The notes beneath the pieces are model-generated. The model saw only the letters and a program-made list of their open reading frames with translations. It had not been told where the DNA came from and made no database searches. From positions 496,001 through 560,000 of the forward strand of contig NZ_CP133592.1 of the NCBI RefSeq assembly GCF_031312595.1: DNA of 64,000 nt. Direction: 5' to 3'. Of this stretch, positions 5,600-13,652 are shown piece by piece. The DNA is from Methanolobus sediminis (GTDB lineage Archaea; Halobacteriota; Methanosarcinia; Methanosarcinales; Methanosarcinaceae). The position numbers and the translations under genes were made by a program. Positions within the stretch are counted from its first letter, which is position 1. Each line of letters opens with the position of its first letter.

Positions 5600-7525
5600 A
5601 TGGCATCAAATGCATTCGTGAAGAAATATTCCTTAGCAGCATCACTGAGTTTTCTTGCAGGTCTTGTATCCTGTATGACAGGACTGCTTTTTGCTATTGT
5701 CAGCAGACTTAACCGTGGTTCCGGTTCAGAGACAATCCTGATAGTCTGCATGTTATTTGGCACAGGCGTGGTGCTGATCCTTGCAGGAATAAATGTTGCA
5801 GGGATACGCCAGAAGCTTTCACGCAGCTATTCTTTCCTTGCGGGTCTGTTGTTATCCATTATCGGATTGTTTGTTTTCATGATATCTTTCCCTGATAACT
5901 GGGTCTATCCAAAGGTCAGTTATGCAATAGTGGCCTATTCACTTGGTATTTTCCTGCTGCTTATCAATATCTTTGTGAATTATTTCCTGCAGGCACTGGG
6001 AGATTCCAGCCAGCGGGGACTGACTCCGCAAAAATACAATGTTCAATCTAATGAACCTCAGCACAATGATTGTTCTGTTCTTACAACCTTTGCAGGCATT
6101 CTAATGACAAATATAACATCAGGTACCTATGAACCCGCTTTTCTTACAGGTACCAGTGATAATGAAAGTACTTACATTATAAACAATACCACTTCTGAAG
6201 AAAATGATCCGGAGCCTCTATTTATGGAATCAAACGAGGAAAAATCCATCACCGAGACTAAAATTGTAACTGCAGCAGATGCAATTAGCGATGAAAACGC
6301 AAAAGTATGTAATGTTGATGATAAGCAGGAAGAAACTACAGCTCTGGAAACAACACAATTCCCCGAGATAGCAGAGGTTATTGAACCTGAAATTGAAAAA
6401 GAGATAGAGGATATTGAAGAAACGCGGGAGAATGAAGAAGAGGCAGAAGTAGAATACCCACCTGAGGAACAGTCTTCTTCAAAGGAAGAAACTGATGTAC
6501 AGAACCTTGTTGTCCCCTATGCAGAATTCAGGTCACTTAAAAAGACAGATATAAAATCTGACGATACCATGCGTGAAGCTGCACGCAAAGTCCTCATGTA
6601 CAATTTCGGTCAGATGATCGAACATGAGAGAGGTACAAAGATCGGCATGGATATTGAAGAACTTCACGATATGAGAGTTGCTGCAATGCGTATGCGTTCA
6701 GTTGTAGAAGTCCTTGAAGACTATCTCAATATGAAAGACATGTCCCCATATTACAAGGACATAAAATCCATAAGGAGGACACTTGGAACCGTACGTGACC
6801 TGGACGTGTTCCTTGAGAAGATAGACCATTATCTTGCAGCACAGCCAGCGGAGAAAGTTCTGGAAATCGAGCCTCTTACTGATTCAATACTAATTGAAAG
6901 GGCAAAGCATCGTGGTACTATGCTTGTGTATCTCGATGATTCAGGCTATAATAAATTCAAAAAGAACTTTGCAGATTACCTGCTGACTAAGAAATCATGG
7001 AAAATCAAATCTGCAAAGAAAAATGGTGAACCGATACCTGCCAGAGTTGTAGATGTACTGCCAGTACTCCTTTACTCCCAGCTTGCAACCGTAAGGGCAT
7101 ATGGTGATGTACTTACTGACGACACAACAATTGACCCTTACCTTGAAAAGTACCATCTGTTAAGGATAGACGTGAAGATACTGCGTTACACCATTGAGTT
7201 CTTCAAGGAAGTTCTTGGTTCTGAAACGAAGAGTCTTATAAGAGACCTCAAAGCCCTTCAGGATAATCTTGGTGACATGCATGATACTGTGGTTGCACTT
7301 GAAATGCTTGAGAACTTCGAGAAATATGGTGTGTGGGGAGAGACACACGGAAAGAAGAACTCTGTCAGCATCAGGGACTATCCGGGTGTTGATGCATATA
7401 TTGAATACAGGAAGAAGGAACTTGCATCCTTGCTGGATTCATTCCCGGATGCATGGTCAAAGGTAATTGACCCTGATTTCAGCGTAAGGTTCTCACAGGC
7501 TATTGCAGGAATTTACAATTCCTGA
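5600..7525 (+). CDS. Membrane-anchored CHAD domain protein
   Basis: 641 residues in three parts. Residues 10-130 hold four hydrophobic segments (about 10-33, 44-68, 76-97, 106-130). Residues 190-300 are a highly acidic, low-complexity linker. Residues 315-640 are a CHAD domain, with the conserved helical motif IEELHDMRVAAMRMRS and later VRDLDVFLEK, DVKILRYTIEFF and LQDNLGDMHD. CHAD domains are histidine-rich helical modules that bind polyphosphate. The gene lies just upstream of ppk1 and ppx on the same strand, which supports a role in tethering polyphosphate at the membrane (inference). Ribosome site GAGGGGAG before ATG 5600. Confidence 0.85.
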   Translation: MASNAFVKKYSLAASLSFLAGLVSCMTGLLFAIVSRLNRGSGSETILIVCMLFGTGVVLILAGINVAGIRQKLSRSYSFLAGLLLSIIGLFVFMISFPDNWVYPKVSYAIVAYSLGIFLLLINIFVNYFLQALGDSSQRGLTPQKYNVQSNEPQHNDCSVLTTFAGILMTNITSGTYEPAFLTGTSDNESTYIINNTTSEENDPEPLFMESNEEKSITETKIVTAADAISDENAKVCNVDDKQEETTALETTQFPEIAEVIEPEIEKEIEDIEETRENEEEAEVEYPPEEQSSSKEETDVQNLVVPYAEFRSLKKTDIKSDDTMREAARKVLMYNFGQMIEHERGTKIGMDIEELHDMRVAAMRMRSVVEVLEDYLNMKDMSPYYKDIKSIRRTLGTVRDLDVFLEKIDHYLAAQPAEKVLEIEPLTDSILIERAKHRGTMLVYLDDSGYNKFKKNFADYLLTKKSWKIKSAKKNGEPIPARVVDVLPVLLYSQLATVRAYGDVLTDDTTIDPYLEKYHLLRIDVKILRYTIEFFKEVLGSETKSLIRDLKALQDNLGDMHDTVVALEMLENFEKYGVWGETHGKKNSVSIRDYPGVDAYIEYRKKELASLLDSFPDAWSKVIDPDFSVRFSQAIAGIYNS

Positions 7526-7672
7526 GAACATGCCATTTGAATTGTATTGATTATGTAAACTATATTATGCTATATACTACTATATATGAATCTGTATGAA
7601 GTGTTATATAATAGAATCACTGTTGTTTTATTAAAACACAACAGCCTTCTGTCGTTTTTAAAACTGAAAAAC

Positions 7673-9754
7673 ATGAGTTTTATGTCAAATGAAGTAAATG
7701 AATATGTCAATAGGGAGATTAGCTGGCTTTCTTTCAACGCAAGGGTACTACAGGAAGCAAAGGACCCAGGTGTTCCTTTACTTGAGCGTCTGAAATTCCT
7801 GGGGATATTCTCTTCCAATCTTGATGAATTCTTCAGTGTGAGAGTCGGTACCCTGCAGAGAATGATAGATGCAGGTGTAAAATCAAAAGCAATGGTTGGC
7901 GTATCACCTAAAAAAATCATGAAAGATGTGCATAGTACCGTACTTGACCTGAGGGATGAATTTGATAAAGTTTTCACAGGAGTCACAAAGGAACTTGAAA
8001 ACCACAATATTTTCATTGTTGATGAAACCCAGCTTGATGATAATCAGAAAGCATTCCTGAAAGTGTATTTCCAGGAGAAGGTCCGACCACGTCTTATTCC
8101 TGTGATGCTAAAGGATATTCCGGATTTCCCCTACCTTAGAAACCAAGTAATCTATCTTGTTATCGATGTAAGAAAAAAATGGGATCCTCAAGGTTCAAAA
8201 TTCGCATTGATAGAAGTGCCGGCAGATGTGCTTCCCCGTTTTGTCAATCTTCCGGATTCAGAGGAACGTAAATGCGTGATCATGCTTGATGACATAATTC
8301 GTTTTGGACTGGATGATATATTCTCAACCTTTGATTATGATTCCATAGGTGCATACACTATCAAGCTTACAAGAGATGCTGAACTTGATATTGACGATGA
8401 TGTTACAAAGAGTTTCTTTGAAAAAGTATCGGAAAGTCTTGAGGAAAGGAAAAAAGGTCAACCGGTGCGGTTTGTGTATGACAGGGAAATACCTTATTAC
8501 CTTCTTGATTTCACCCTGAAAAGACTGGATATCGAGAACTTTGAAAACCTTGTGCCAGGTGGAAAATACCACAATGCAAAGGATTTTATGGGCTTCCCGG
8601 AGATTGGACCTGAATCTTTCTATTATGAAAAAAAGCATCCTTTACCACATAAAGACCTGAGAAGCCACAAGAGTATGCTTGCCGCTATCAGGGAAAAGGA
8701 TATTCTTCTTCACTATCCATACCAATCTTTTGATTATTTCATAGACCTGTTACGAGAAGCAGCAATTGACCCGAATGTTACAAGCATTAAAGTCACTCTT
8801 TACAGGGTTGCACGCAATTCTAATGTGATCAATGCACTCATAAATGCTATCAAGAACGGAAAAACAGTTACTGTTGTCATTGAACTTCAGGCACGTTTCG
8901 ATGAAGAATCAAATATTTACTGGACACAGAAACTAGAAGATGCAGGAGCAAGGATCATTGATGGTGTACCTGGTCTGAAAGTGCATTCCAAACTTTGCCA
9001 CATAAGCAGAAAAGAAGGAAAAGACACTGTCCACTATTCCTGTATCGGAACCGGGAACTTCAATGAATCAACTGCCAGTATCTATTGTGACCACATGTTA
9101 ATGACCAGAAACAAAGATATTACATATGAGGTTGAAAAGATCTTTGATTTCTTTGATCACAATTACAAAGTCTATGATTATGAACACCTCGTTGTTGCAC
9201 CACTTCAGATGCGAAATAAGTTTACAAAACTCATTGACAATGAGATAAACAACGCAAAAGAAGGTAAACCTGCATATATCCATGCCAAGATGAACAGCCT
9301 TGTGGATAGTGAAATGATAGACAAGCTCTATGAAGCCAGCGAAGCAGGTGTAAAAGTAAAGCTTGTTGTCAGAGGTATATGTTCACTTGTCCCTGGTGTT
9401 GAAGGACTTAGTGAGAACATTGATGTTATCAGTATAGTTGACAAATATCTTGAACACTCCAGGATATTTATTTTCTGCAATGAGGGGAACGAGAAATACT
9501 TCATCTCGTCTGCTGACTGGATGGTAAGAAACCTTGACAGGCGTGTTGAGGTTGCTACACCGATATATGATGTAGCTTTGAAAACGGAGCTGAGAGAATA
9601 TATGGATATCCAGTTCGCTGACAATACAAAGGCCAGAATAATCAACGAAACCCAGGATAACAAGTACGTTAAAAACGACTGTAAAATCTGCCGTGCCCAG
9701 GAAGACACATATGTTTTCCTTGAAAAGCAATTGCAAAATGAGGTAACAGAGTGA
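7673..9754 (+). CDS. ppk1: Polyphosphate kinase 1
   Basis: Polymerises the gamma-phosphate of ATP into polyphosphate. The frame is open from 7586, but a TATA-like stretch at 7571-7583 overlaps that codon and family N-termini begin near the YVNREISWLSFNARVL motif. I therefore place the start at ATG 7673 (693 aa; ATG 7682 is equally possible). The two family histidines are present in KVHSKLCH (His 438, autophosphorylated) and LEHSRIF (His 595). The GTGNFNESTA and YRVARNS motifs of the phospholipase-D-like domains are visible. The 3' end overlaps ppx by 4 bp, so the two are probably translationally coupled: synthesis and breakdown of polyphosphate from one mRNA. Confidence 0.95.
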   Translation: MSFMSNEVNEYVNREISWLSFNARVLQEAKDPGVPLLERLKFLGIFSSNLDEFFSVRVGTLQRMIDAGVKSKAMVGVSPKKIMKDVHSTVLDLRDEFDKVFTGVTKELENHNIFIVDETQLDDNQKAFLKVYFQEKVRPRLIPVMLKDIPDFPYLRNQVIYLVIDVRKKWDPQGSKFALIEVPADVLPRFVNLPDSEERKCVIMLDDIIRFGLDDIFSTFDYDSIGAYTIKLTRDAELDIDDDVTKSFFEKVSESLEERKKGQPVRFVYDREIPYYLLDFTLKRLDIENFENLVPGGKYHNAKDFMGFPEIGPESFYYEKKHPLPHKDLRSHKSMLAAIREKDILLHYPYQSFDYFIDLLREAAIDPNVTSIKVTLYRVARNSNVINALINAIKNGKTVTVVIELQARFDEESNIYWTQKLEDAGARIIDGVPGLKVHSKLCHISRKEGKDTVHYSCIGTGNFNESTASIYCDHMLMTRNKDITYEVEKIFDFFDHNYKVYDYEHLVVAPLQMRNKFTKLIDNEINNAKEGKPAYIHAKMNSLVDSEMIDKLYEASEAGVKVKLVVRGICSLVPGVEGLSENIDVISIVDKYLEHSRIFIFCNEGNEKYFISSADWMVRNLDRRVEVATPIYDVALKTELREYMDIQFADNTKARIINETQDNKYVKNDCKICRAQEDTYVFLEKQLQNEVTE

Positions 9755-10644
9755 GATTTGCTGCCATAGACATTGGTTCAAATGCTGTCAGACTTCTTCT
9801 GTCAAAGGTAGATTCTGAAGGAATTGAACCGGTCTTTGAAAAGATATCATTTATACGCATGCCAATCAGACTTGGAGAAGATGCTTTCATTCACAATAAC
9901 ATTTCACCGGAAAAAGAATCACGTCTCATTAAAACCATGATTGGATTCAAGTACCTGATGGATGCATACGAACCTCTGGATTACATGGCATGCGCCACTT
10001 CAGCCATGCGAGAAGCAGATAACAGTGACGAGATCATAGCCAAAATAAAAGAAAAAAGTGGCATTGACCTGAAAGTGATTAGTGGCAGGAAAGAAGCAAA
10101 GATAATCTATTCCAACCGGATTGAGAAAATAATCGGAAGCAGCGATTCAACTTACCTGCATGTGGATGTTGGAGGTGGAAGCACTGAACTAATCCTGTTT
10201 AAGGGAAATGATGTCTTTGCATACAGGTCATTCAATATCGGAACCATCCGAATGCTTGAAGGTATTGTGACAAAAGATGACTGGAATGAGATGAGGAAGT
10301 GGGTAAGGAAAGTCACCGATGAACACAAACCGGATTATGCCATTGGAAGTGGCGGCAACATAAACAAACTTTACAGAATGTCAGGTAGAAAAGACGGTAC
10401 ACTCCTTTTAAGAGATGACATACAGCAACTCAAAAAATATCTGAGAGGATTCACGCTGGAGCAGAGGATCACTAAACTTGGTTTAAAGCCGGACAGGGCA
10501 GATGTTATAGTTCCCGCTTCCAAGATATATTACTCCGTTATGAAATGGGGTGATATTGAATACATGCATGTACCAAAACTTGGTCTTGCAGACGGAATAG
10601 TGCATGTACTGTATAAAAAACATATGAATAGATATATAAAATAA
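9751..10644 (+). CDS. ppx: Exopolyphosphatase / GppA family phosphatase
   Basis: 297 residues of the ASKHA fold: phosphate-1 motif AAIDIGSNAVRLL (residues 4-16) and phosphate-2 motif VDVGGGSTELI. It removes terminal phosphate from polyphosphate and/or pppGpp. Only the N-terminal catalytic module (about 300 aa) is present; the C-terminal HD-like domain of longer bacterial enzymes is absent, as in other short Ppx proteins. The start is GTG at 9751 inside the ppk1 stop (GTGA overlap) with an AGGTAACAG ribosome site. Which substrate dominates cannot be read from sequence. Confidence 0.9.
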   Translation: MRFAAIDIGSNAVRLLLSKVDSEGIEPVFEKISFIRMPIRLGEDAFIHNNISPEKESRLIKTMIGFKYLMDAYEPLDYMACATSAMREADNSDEIIAKIKEKSGIDLKVISGRKEAKIIYSNRIEKIIGSSDSTYLHVDVGGGSTELILFKGNDVFAYRSFNIGTIRMLEGIVTKDDWNEMRKWVRKVTDEHKPDYAIGSGGNINKLYRMSGRKDGTLLLRDDIQQLKKYLRGFTLEQRITKLGLKPDRADVIVPASKIYYSVMKWGDIEYMHVPKLGLADGIVHVLYKKHMNRYIK

Positions 10645-10773
10645 AGTCCATATATTTCGTGTTTTTTGAACATGGAATATTTTCCGAATATCCGGCATAC
10701 TGATATCTTTTTGTGATTCTGCTGGATTTTATTTGTGGAAACTATAGCCATAGGTGGCAAATCCTATGTTCAT

Positions 10774-10783
10774 AATATATAAA
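10774..10783 (+). promoter_or_regulatory. TATA box for the actin-like/coiled-coil operon
   Basis: AATATATAAA lies about 95 bp upstream of ATG 10878, so transcription should begin near 10806 and leave a leader of about 70 nt. That leader holds imperfectly complementary segments (GATCCCATG near 10822 and CATGTGGGTC near 10846) that could form a bulged hairpin. Confidence 0.5.
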
Positions 10784-10877
10784 TACTGATTTAATCGAAT
10801 CAATTTTTATCAATAAAAACGGATCCCATGTATTTGTTGTAATTCCATGTGGGTCTCAAAAATAAGTAGTTGATTAC

Positions 10878-11915
10878 ATGGAAGATCAGACAATCAGTAA
10901 TAAGAGCCTGTATATTGGCATAGATGCAGGAATGTTCAAAACCTCTGTGTGTACCAGTGAAGGAAAAAGATTCACTGAACGCAGTATTGTTGCTTTTTCC
11001 AGTGAGAACAGCAACAGCCATGAACAAAAAGTAGTATCCGGCAAGGATGCACTTGATCTGACAGAGGGGAATATAAAAGAGCTTTTCAAAGGTGAGCTCA
11101 GGACAGAAGAAGATATAGATGCCTGCAGAAAGTTCCTGAGATCTATTCTTGAAAAGCATGATATTGATGCAAGTCGGGATACATATGCAATACTTGGAAC
11201 TCCTTCAAATGCAAACAAGGAATACAAACGCAAATTCCTTGAACTTGCAAATGAGGTGTTTTCAGGTGCTATGCTTGTTGATGAACTCTTTTGTGCATCC
11301 TACAAGAACAATCTTCCTGACAGGTCCATAATAGTGGACATTGGTTACAGTAAAACGGATATTTCTATAATAGACAGTGAAATCCCCAGGGAAAATGATT
11401 GCCTGAGAATCTCATGTGCCGGAAAGGACATCGATTCTGAGATCGTAAAACTGATCAGCGAAAGGTGGGAAGATTCAAAAGTAACTGAGCAACTTGCCAG
11501 TGAATGGAAAGAGAAATACGGACACCTGGGTTCTGGTTCAGACACGTGTGTCGTTGATGTTCCCCTGGAAAGTGGCAATGTTCAGGAATCTATTATGGAA
11601 GAGTTACAACTGGCATGTGAGTTCGTTGTGACGGATATTGTATCGGGAATTATCAAACTTATATCGGATATTGAGCCGGAACTGCGTGAAAAACTAAGAA
11701 ACAATATCCATATTTTAGGGGGGACCAGTGACCTTGAGGGACTTGATACTTTCATCGAGAACGAACTGAAGGTGCTTGGCGGTGGTAAAGTCATTTCTGA
11801 TATAGATCCAATGTACGGGATTTCAGAAGGCGCACTTGAAATTGCAAAGAATATGCCACCGGAATTCTGGACTCAGCTGAATGCTGAAAATAAAACTAAG
11901 GAAATGATAGTATGA
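10878..11915 (+). CDS. Actin-like ATPase (MreB/MamK/ParM superfamily)
   Basis: 345 residues with the actin/Hsp70 nucleotide-binding motifs in order: phosphate 1 (YIGIDAGMFKTSV, residues 12-24, Asp16), a connect-1-like LVDELFCASY (133-142), phosphate 2 (IIVDIGYSKTDISII, 151-165) and the adenosine motif HILGGTSDLEGLD (about 283-295). Length and motif spacing fit filament-forming prokaryotic actins better than sugar kinases or Ppx. The next gene, a coiled-coil protein, starts inside its stop codon (ATGA overlap), so the two are almost certainly made together. A cytoskeletal or positioning role is inferred. It could also be a non-polymerising ASKHA protein. Confidence 0.75.
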   Translation: MEDQTISNKSLYIGIDAGMFKTSVCTSEGKRFTERSIVAFSSENSNSHEQKVVSGKDALDLTEGNIKELFKGELRTEEDIDACRKFLRSILEKHDIDASRDTYAILGTPSNANKEYKRKFLELANEVFSGAMLVDELFCASYKNNLPDRSIIVDIGYSKTDISIIDSEIPRENDCLRISCAGKDIDSEIVKLISERWEDSKVTEQLASEWKEKYGHLGSGSDTCVVDVPLESGNVQESIMEELQLACEFVVTDIVSGIIKLISDIEPELREKLRNNIHILGGTSDLEGLDTFIENELKVLGGGKVISDIDPMYGISEGALEIAKNMPPEFWTQLNAENKTKEMIV

Positions 11916-13582
11916 ATCCATTGAACTTATCAGGTAGGAAAAAGGAAAATGAAAATTCATCACAGGTATTTACCCCTAATATCTACCGCAAGCCCGTTAT
12001 GAAAGAGGAATATGAGAAAGAGGCTAAGACTGCTTCTTCAAGTCCTCATAACTATATGCCGGCATCTGAAAAAGATGATGATACATTTACCAGTCATGCT
12101 ACTCAGACAGTTCAGACAATTAATATCCCTGAAGGCTTCAATTCCAATATAGAGGAACTTATCGAGAAAGAAGCAGAGCTTGTTAAGATAAGAGAACGCT
12201 ATGAGGCTGATATTAGCGAGTATGAGAAAAAACAGAAAGAGCTCGATGAGCTGAAAAACGATTTTTCGCAGCAGGAAAAGCAACTCCGCAAAAAGTGTGC
12301 TATCATAAAATCTGCCAGTGAAAAAGCAAAGAAGGCTATTCCGCAGAATCAGAAAGATGATCTTGAAAAGGAGATCGCTGAGTTTGAAAAGAAGCGTGGG
12401 GACCTTGAAGCCCGTGTCAAAGAGTTTGAAGTATCCAGACAGGAATATGAGAAGGATTTTGCTGAATATCAGGCTAAAAAGGAGGAGCTTGATTCCCTGA
12501 GATTAGCTTATGAAACTGAATTTGAACAATATAAAGCAAAAAGATCCGAACTGGATGAACAGTGCAGGATACTTGAGGAGCAGCTTTCAAAAGGTGAAGA
12601 GCTATCCATCGAGTTCAATGAAGCTACATCCCAAGCGGCACTTGAAGTTATTAAGGCTGGATATTATTCAGAGCTGAAAGAGCTTAACAGGAAAAAGGCA
12701 GATATCCAGACCATTAAAACACAACTGGAAGATGATGAATCACTTTTTGCTGAAAAACGTTCTTCCATCGAAAAGATGAAAGAGCATATCCAGGCAGAGA
12801 TATCTGATATTGGAAACAAGGCAAAGGAACTTGAGAGTACTGTTGCAAACTATGAAGAAAGGCTTAAAGAGCATCAGGAAAAGGAGCTTTCTTTTGAGGA
12901 AAAGATAAAAGCTTTCCATGAGAAAAAAGATGAGTTCAAAGCTGAACGTGAAAGGATCCAGCTTGAGCATGAGGAGAACATCAGAACCTTTGAGGCAGAC
13001 TTTGAGAAGAAGAAGGCTGAGTTTGAGGCTGAGCATGAAAGGATAAAACTGGGGCATGAGGAGAAAGTCAAAGTCTACGAGAATACATTTGAGGAAATGA
13101 AAGCTGGATTAAAGGCCAAGCGTGAAGAACTCAGATTAAAGCATGAAGAAAATATCAAGGCCCATGAAGAAAAAGAGCGTGCTTTCCAGGAAGATATGAA
13201 AACTCTTGAAGCTAAAAAATCCGAGATAAAGGCTGAAAGCGAGAATCTTGACCAGAAGCGAGAGGAGAATTCAAAGTTCGAGGCTGAGATGGAGAGAATG
13301 CTTGCTGAAATGGAAGATAAGAGAAAAGAACTTGACGGAATGATCGAGAAAACAAACAGTGAGATCGGTGTTCACGTTACTATTCATCGCCAGAACCTTG
13401 ACATAAAGAAGCTCAACAATAAACTGGAACAGCAGACCATCTACATACAGAGCCTTGAGACATCCGTTGCCGAGCTTAAAAGAAACCTTGAAGAAGCAAA
13501 GTGTGATGTTAAAAAGAACGAAGTATTCTCACAGATACTTAAATCCAATATGGAACTGATGGATAAGCCGCAGTTTATATGA
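11912..13582 (+). CDS. Long coiled-coil protein coupled to actin-like gene
   Basis: 556 residues. After a polar N-terminus (about 1-60) nearly all of residues 65-545 is charged heptad sequence rich in E, K, A and L, without membrane segments or a signal peptide. Residues 345-434 contain three consecutive repeats of about 29 residues, each beginning near ERIxLxHEE or EELRLKHEE. No enzymatic motif is seen. The ATG lies in the stop of the actin-like gene (4-bp overlap). By analogy with actin/coiled-coil partnerships it may be a filament partner, scaffold or adaptor; this is inference. Tropomyosin-, SMC- or Rad50-like head domains are absent. Confidence 0.8.
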   Translation: MNPLNLSGRKKENENSSQVFTPNIYRKPVMKEEYEKEAKTASSSPHNYMPASEKDDDTFTSHATQTVQTINIPEGFNSNIEELIEKEAELVKIRERYEADISEYEKKQKELDELKNDFSQQEKQLRKKCAIIKSASEKAKKAIPQNQKDDLEKEIAEFEKKRGDLEARVKEFEVSRQEYEKDFAEYQAKKEELDSLRLAYETEFEQYKAKRSELDEQCRILEEQLSKGEELSIEFNEATSQAALEVIKAGYYSELKELNRKKADIQTIKTQLEDDESLFAEKRSSIEKMKEHIQAEISDIGNKAKELESTVANYEERLKEHQEKELSFEEKIKAFHEKKDEFKAERERIQLEHEENIRTFEADFEKKKAEFEAEHERIKLGHEEKVKVYENTFEEMKAGLKAKREELRLKHEENIKAHEEKERAFQEDMKTLEAKKSEIKAESENLDQKREENSKFEAEMERMLAEMEDKRKELDGMIEKTNSEIGVHVTIHRQNLDIKKLNNKLEQQTIYIQSLETSVAELKRNLEEAKCDVKKNEVFSQILKSNMELMDKPQFI

Positions 13583-13590
13583 TATTATAT

Positions 13591-13652
13591 GTGTGCCTCA
13601 GAACTCATAGGGTTCATCACAGATCAGATGTGATTTCTCATCATTGGCACAC
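13591..13652. other. Multi-branched inverted-repeat structure between convergent genes
   Basis: An outer 7-bp stem (GTGTGCC 13591-13597 with GGCACAC 13646-13652) encloses two small hairpins, GAAC/GTTC (13601-13604 with 13612-13615) and ATCACA/TGTGAT (13616-13621 with 13629-13634). It lies between the stop of the coiled-coil gene and the stop of pyrF, so it is probably a bidirectional terminator or 3'-end stabiliser. A small structured RNA is possible. Confidence 0.5.

Follow-up and report, generated by a model that had tools for sequence, protein, structure and literature searches.

A gene for an actin-like protein related to MamK and a gene for a coiled-coil protein adjoin each other in a 64,000-nucleotide stretch of the Methanolobus sediminis genome (hereafter the window), and the locus is read here, with a probability of roughly 0.55, as a two-part archaeal cytoskeletal unit consisting of a dedicated MamK-type filament and a length-variable coiled-coil adaptor. 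The occurrence of a MamK relative always beside a rod-like helper, along with the piece of the archaellum that the helper carries in sister groups, points to an archaeal cytoskeletal unit that is as yet unstudied; the literature search, of partial coverage, returned no paper linking MamK with Methanoperedens. MamK is the organiser of magnetosome chains, and to our knowledge no magnetosome occurs in M. sediminis. With two genes only, the pair makes a compact system, in methanotrophic and methylotrophic archaea, for asking which functions MamK-type filaments have apart from magnetosomes. It also raises the question of by what route a domain of the archaellum entered a cytoskeleton. Methanolobus is culturable, which makes localisation studies feasible. 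Of the points presented below, the specific kinship to MamK, the C-terminal module shared by the partners and the ArlD/E domain in the partners of sister lineages were absent from the earlier note on this DNA.

The features of the locus, in window coordinates, are as follows.

10769-10795, + strand: block TTCATAATATATAAATACTGATTTAAT, TATA-like at its core and probably the promoter of the pair; identical in five Methanolobus species
10878-11915, + strand: MamK-related actin-like gene (ORF, 345 amino acids)
10917-10946, + strand: phosphate-1 loop GIDAGMFKTS; D16 and G18 retained, Met in place of the usual Thr (table of 48 homologues)
11283-11285, + strand: E136, equivalent of the catalytic E143 of MamK (alignment to 5ljw and residue tables)
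11334-11366, + strand: phosphate-2 loop VDIGYSKTDIS; D154 and G156 retained, SKT in place of GTT
11709-11732, + strand: adenosine motif HILGGTSD; both glycines, G281 and G282, invariant across 48 homologues
11912-13582, + strand: coiled-coil partner gene (ORF, 556 amino acids; heptad periodicity), adjoining the actin gene in all loci read
11969-11995, + strand: N-terminal motif FTPNIYRKP; F20 and P22-P28 invariant in 19 Methanolobus partners
12839-13261, + strand: rod segment with 29-residue repeats (z 7.9 for autocorrelation at lag 29; the alignment shows length gaps)
13346-13564, + strand: C-terminal module (HR[QR]..I..LE..), present in every partner as well as in an unlinked paralogue; suggested to be the end that binds the filament

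Fold and kinship of the actin-like protein

The predicted model gives the window protein a true actin fold over its full length, with MamK as the closest relative and the protein itself as a diverged offshoot. Family model searches matched it to Pfam MreB_Mbl with 64 bits and, in NCBIfam, to MamK (NF040964) with 218 bits and MreB with 53, while a sequence search of the PDB returned MamK with an E-value of 7e-39. For the AF2 model (pLDDT 87.5), the best structural match was the MamK filament 5ljv (Z 36.1 over 317 residues), followed by BeeR, MreB and actins, all within Z 30-36, and a Foldseek search likewise placed MamK entries on top. MamK is the best match in all three of the NCBIfam, PDB sequence and PDB structure searches, and the actin fold that the earlier note had recognised from sequence motifs is borne out by the Pfam model, the MamK model and the predicted structure. 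Placement with sugar kinases or Ppx, the outcome that the note had set against its own reading, did not arise: sugar kinases are absent among the structure hits listed, and the Ppx-GppA family model does not match the window actin, the neighbouring ppx scoring 128 bits.

Since the curated cut-off of 400 bits for NF040964 is missed by the window protein, it is classed as a MamK-related actin and not as MamK; the Methanolobus psychrotolerans homologue (204 bits) also falls below it. Among other relatives, the score rises to 372 in ANME-2, 395 in Methanoperedens and 410-498 in some bacteria, and the Methanoperedens homologue superposes on MamK with a TM of 0.96 at 38% identity. A draw of 393 genomes of the phylum (136 genera) confined the strong homologues to Methanosarcinales, the remainder scoring below 56 bits against the family profile. 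Methanolobus actins form a long branch in the tree, the outgroup of which is unreliable, with weak archaeal actin rows on very long branches whose placement was not used.

Two other archaeal actins merit comparison. Crenactin presumably belongs to a different branch of the actins. Its known partner proteins, the arcadins (PMC5173319), provide a likeness to the present pair in that an archaeal actin goes with partner proteins. Salactin of the haloarchaea, a euryarchaeal actin with MamK as its closest relatives (PMC10746226), resembles the window actin in lineage and in MamK kinship; it differs in that the window actin scores 36.5 bits against the salactin model (NF053533, cut-off 400).

Nucleotide-binding residues and filament dynamics

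The earlier note had described both phosphate motifs as kept, which holds for the Asp and Gly anchors and for E136 and does not extend to the loop sequences. D16, G18, D154 and G156 are invariant, as is the adenosine GG in the 48 homologues, and the equivalents of MamK E143 and D161 are E136 and D154. In phosphate-1, however, the window protein has DAGM where DLGT is usual (GIDLGT..), the Thr being lost in the Methanolobus subclade of the window, and in phosphate-2 it has VDIGYSKTD as against VDIGAGTTD in the Methanoperedens, ANME-2 and bacterial relatives, Methanolobus in general having forms of the VDIGYSKTD type. The residue table of the 48 homologues shows the phosphate loops to be degenerate throughout Methanolobus, and the E143 equivalent is lost in 10 of the 26 Methanolobus homologues (G001, G003, G005, G006, G014, G015, G020, G021, G023 and G026).

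In Magnetospirillum, the MamK mutant E143A forms static filaments and D161A stable ones (PMC5059902). Static filaments are, by analogy with E143A, a fair prediction for the Methanolobus species that lack the catalytic Glu. With 218 of the 400 bits and degenerate nucleotide loops, the window actin itself may have lost ATP hydrolysis or polymerisation. An alternative is that the Methanolobus actin fold is a non-filamentous scaffold or pseudo-ATPase, comparable to PilM-like or FtsA-like proteins, which draws the coiled-coil protein to a fixed position. The degenerate loops, the catalytic Glu lost in those ten homologues and the long branch in the tree all speak for it, but the anchor residues and the adenosine GG are invariant, both genes evolve under purifying selection (dN/dS about 0.1, range 0.09-0.14), and static filaments would account for the same losses, which leaves the scaffold unlikely.

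The coiled-coil partner

The partner is a coiled coil with heptad periodicity, and, in line with the earlier note, it belongs to no named family: none of the named coiled-coil family models matched the window partner. Identity with SMC/Rad50 was considered and rejected, as the match (37 bits against a curated 567) covers the coiled-coil region only and reflects coiled-coil similarity. The note had also described a long coiled coil with 29-residue repeats; both are real, the repeats being restricted to residues of about 310-450, and their copy number differs between close relatives. At the extremes of partner length stand some 190-209 residues (Methanoperedens) and 1940 (one ANME-2 genome). Two ANME-2 partners (L048:2639-8461, 1940 residues; L129:2691-7660, 1657 residues) have an N-terminal ArlD/E domain and are very long for a single coiled coil.

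Alignment brings out a stretch of about 73 residues at the C-terminus, the C-terminal module, in all partners. A coiled-coil paralogue that carries this module and has a length of roughly 285 residues is present, unlinked, in 25 of 27 Methanolobus genomes (L051:9702-10547 in the M. sediminis genome), and no conserved neighbours were seen around it. At the other end, Methanolobus partners carry FTPNIYRKP where sister lineages have ArlD/E; the NIYRKP coding pattern occurs once in the M. sediminis genome, with no further copy of the motif elsewhere in it.

Organisation and co-occurrence of the pair

Both genes are real and adjacent, and the window actin is 94% identical to its homologue in M. vulcani PL 12/M. 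The stop codon of the actin gene and the start codon of the partner gene overlap as ATGA at 11912, the earlier note having placed the start inside the stop codon, and the two proteins are probably co-produced from one message by translational coupling. The partner gene lies directly 3' of the actin gene in 37/37 named Methanosarcinales loci, the junction being an ATGA overlap, a short gap or stop-ATG, and the two were never apart in the loci read; separation of the genes in most genomes was another outcome that the note had set against its proposal.

The C-terminal module also tracks the actin across 100 genomes, both being present in 33, the module alone in 2, the actin alone in 2 and neither in 63. 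The module thus occurs in 33 of 35 actin genomes as against 2 of the 65 others (p about 1e-21, a value that ignores shared ancestry), and outside Methanolobus in 7 of 9 actin genomes as against 1 of 64 others (table 7/2/1/63). In both actin-only genomes a contig end truncates the partner. In one of the two module-only genomes, G010, the contig stops 216 bp beyond ppx, so that its actin may simply be unassembled and its absence is no evidence of true loss. Bacterial MamK-like loci had no downstream protein matching the partner profiles, and no conserved neighbour other than the partner points to a cargo in the loci read. The filament and adaptor unit of the earlier note is supported in so far as the actin has a dedicated partner, without the polyphosphate role that the note had attached to it.

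Proposed arrangement and comparison with MamK systems

Fold, kinship, adjacency, co-occurrence and selection were computed; for polymerisation, actin-partner binding, the end that binds each target and the cargo we infer the following arrangement. The MamK-lineage actin would most likely assemble into MamK-like two-stranded filaments, to which the coiled-coil rod likely binds by way of its conserved C-terminal module; as no other part is common to all partners, the module is the best candidate for the filament-binding end. The N-terminal end of the rod would then hold a cargo or a cell site by means of the ArlD/E-type domain or, in Methanolobus, FTPNIYRKP. Spacing would be set by the length of the rod, which varies through the 29-residue repeats. 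The Methanolobus filament is probably slow or static, given the degenerate phosphate loops and the several species without the catalytic Glu. Modelling the Methanoperedens actin and partner as a read-through fusion yielded good domains at a pTM of 0.63, with an interface unreadable from the output.

MamK, like the filament predicted here, is a filament subunit that works with adaptor proteins including coiled coils; it has the actin fold and is the best match of the window protein in structure and sequence. The window protein differs in its score (218 as against the cut-off of 400), its degenerate phosphate loops, its archaeal origin and its single dedicated partner. In Desulfovibrio magneticus RS-1, MamK/Mad28 and the coiled-coil proteins Mad20, Mad23, Mad25 and Mad26 interact in two-hybrid assays and organise an organelle (PMC12748827). 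That system likewise combines actin-like with coiled-coil proteins, a likeness of general make-up; the window partner matches no named coiled-coil family model.

The ArlD/E domain and the archaellum

In each of the nine genomes outside Methanolobus that have the actin, namely Methanoperedens, ANME-2 and Methanosarcinaceae MAGs, the partner starts with the Arch_fla_DE domain (PF04659), which scores 29-62 bits, above the gathering cut-off of 21. No match to it was found in the window partner or at the partner locus across Methanolobus. The likeness to ArlD/ArlE is limited by position, the domain being N-terminal in the partners rather than near the C-terminus, and by its occurrence also in genomes without archaellum genes.

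The distribution raises the possibility that filament and adaptor organise the archaellum pole or the polar cap, with the ArlD/E-type domain as the point of attachment to the motor or the cap. ArlC/D/E are thought to form the switch complex of the archaellum, with a proposed contact to the polar cap (PMC8978795), and ArlD marks the cell poles in Haloferax (PMC6509185); both accord with such a role, as do the domain in all nine partners and the arl cluster of the M. sediminis genome. However, three ANME-2 genomes, G061 (100% complete), G064 (97%) and G099 (83%), have the pair without canonical ArlD/E or archaellins in searches with PF04659 and PF01917, and a role confined to the archaellum is unsupported in them. 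A chemotaxis role linked to CheF was likewise set aside: searches of 12 pair-bearing genomes turned up no CheF, whereas the control Methanosarcina acetivorans yielded it. Methanolobus partners, moreover, are without the domain though the genus keeps archaellum genes. The archaellum pole is therefore considered distinctly unlikely as the site of action, and the domain looks borrowed for another use, given that some genomes have the pair but no archaellum genes and that the searches for CheF in the 12 genomes came out negative.

The two-part cytoskeletal unit can be extended, tentatively, to a wider scheme that is judged unlikely in its entirety: methane-cycling archaea would have a MamK-lineage cytoskeleton with the ArlD/E domain of the switch complex grafted on a variable coiled-coil rod, organising a polar or organelle-like structure, possibly part of the euryarchaeal polar cap, independently of the archaellum, and Methanolobus would later have replaced the domain and frozen the filament.

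A second protein with an ArlD/E domain is encoded in the M. sediminis genome away from the arl cluster (L153:5306-7978, 890 residues); the N-terminal half is a long low-complexity region.

Upstream region and chromosomal context

Genes for a CHAD-domain membrane protein, ppk1 and ppx occupy window positions 5600-10644 and likely form a polyphosphate gene cluster. The ppx gene ends at 10644, 233 bp upstream of the actin gene, in agreement with the 230 bp given earlier. The conserved TATA-like block sits in this interval, and because its 27 bases stay constant while the neighbouring sequence drifts, a promoter belonging to the pair is more probable than transcription along with ppx. A strongly conserved leader, GGATCCCATGTA..CCATGTGGGTCT (window 10818-10860), lies between the block and the actin start; a conserved hairpin in it found no support (folding z -0.47).

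The proposal that the pair positions polyphosphate bodies, made in the earlier note from this neighbourhood, draws on the presence of CHAD-ppk1-ppx upstream of the pair in most Methanolobus genomes. Against it, ppk1 is missing from 13 of the 35 actin-bearing genomes, including four Methanolobus genomes (G005, G012, G015 and G023, 99% complete) that keep the pair and all nine outside the genus, and the pair has a separate conserved promoter-like block; the role is thus very improbable, and the neighbourhood is best read as local synteny. A two-gene layout of actin and adaptor is typical of ParM-like DNA segregation systems, but a system of that kind, with the coiled-coil protein as DNA adaptor, is hardly to be expected at a chromosomal locus whose synteny is fixed in Methanolobus, where pyrF-like and deoxyhypusine-synthase-like genes lie beside it, with an actin akin to MamK and not to ParM and with no DNA-binding domain found in the partner by family model searches.

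Just 3' of the coiled-coil gene, on the minus strand (window 13596-13648), lies a match to the C/D box guide RNA sR41 (Rfam RF01126; 56.2 bits, gathering score 54).
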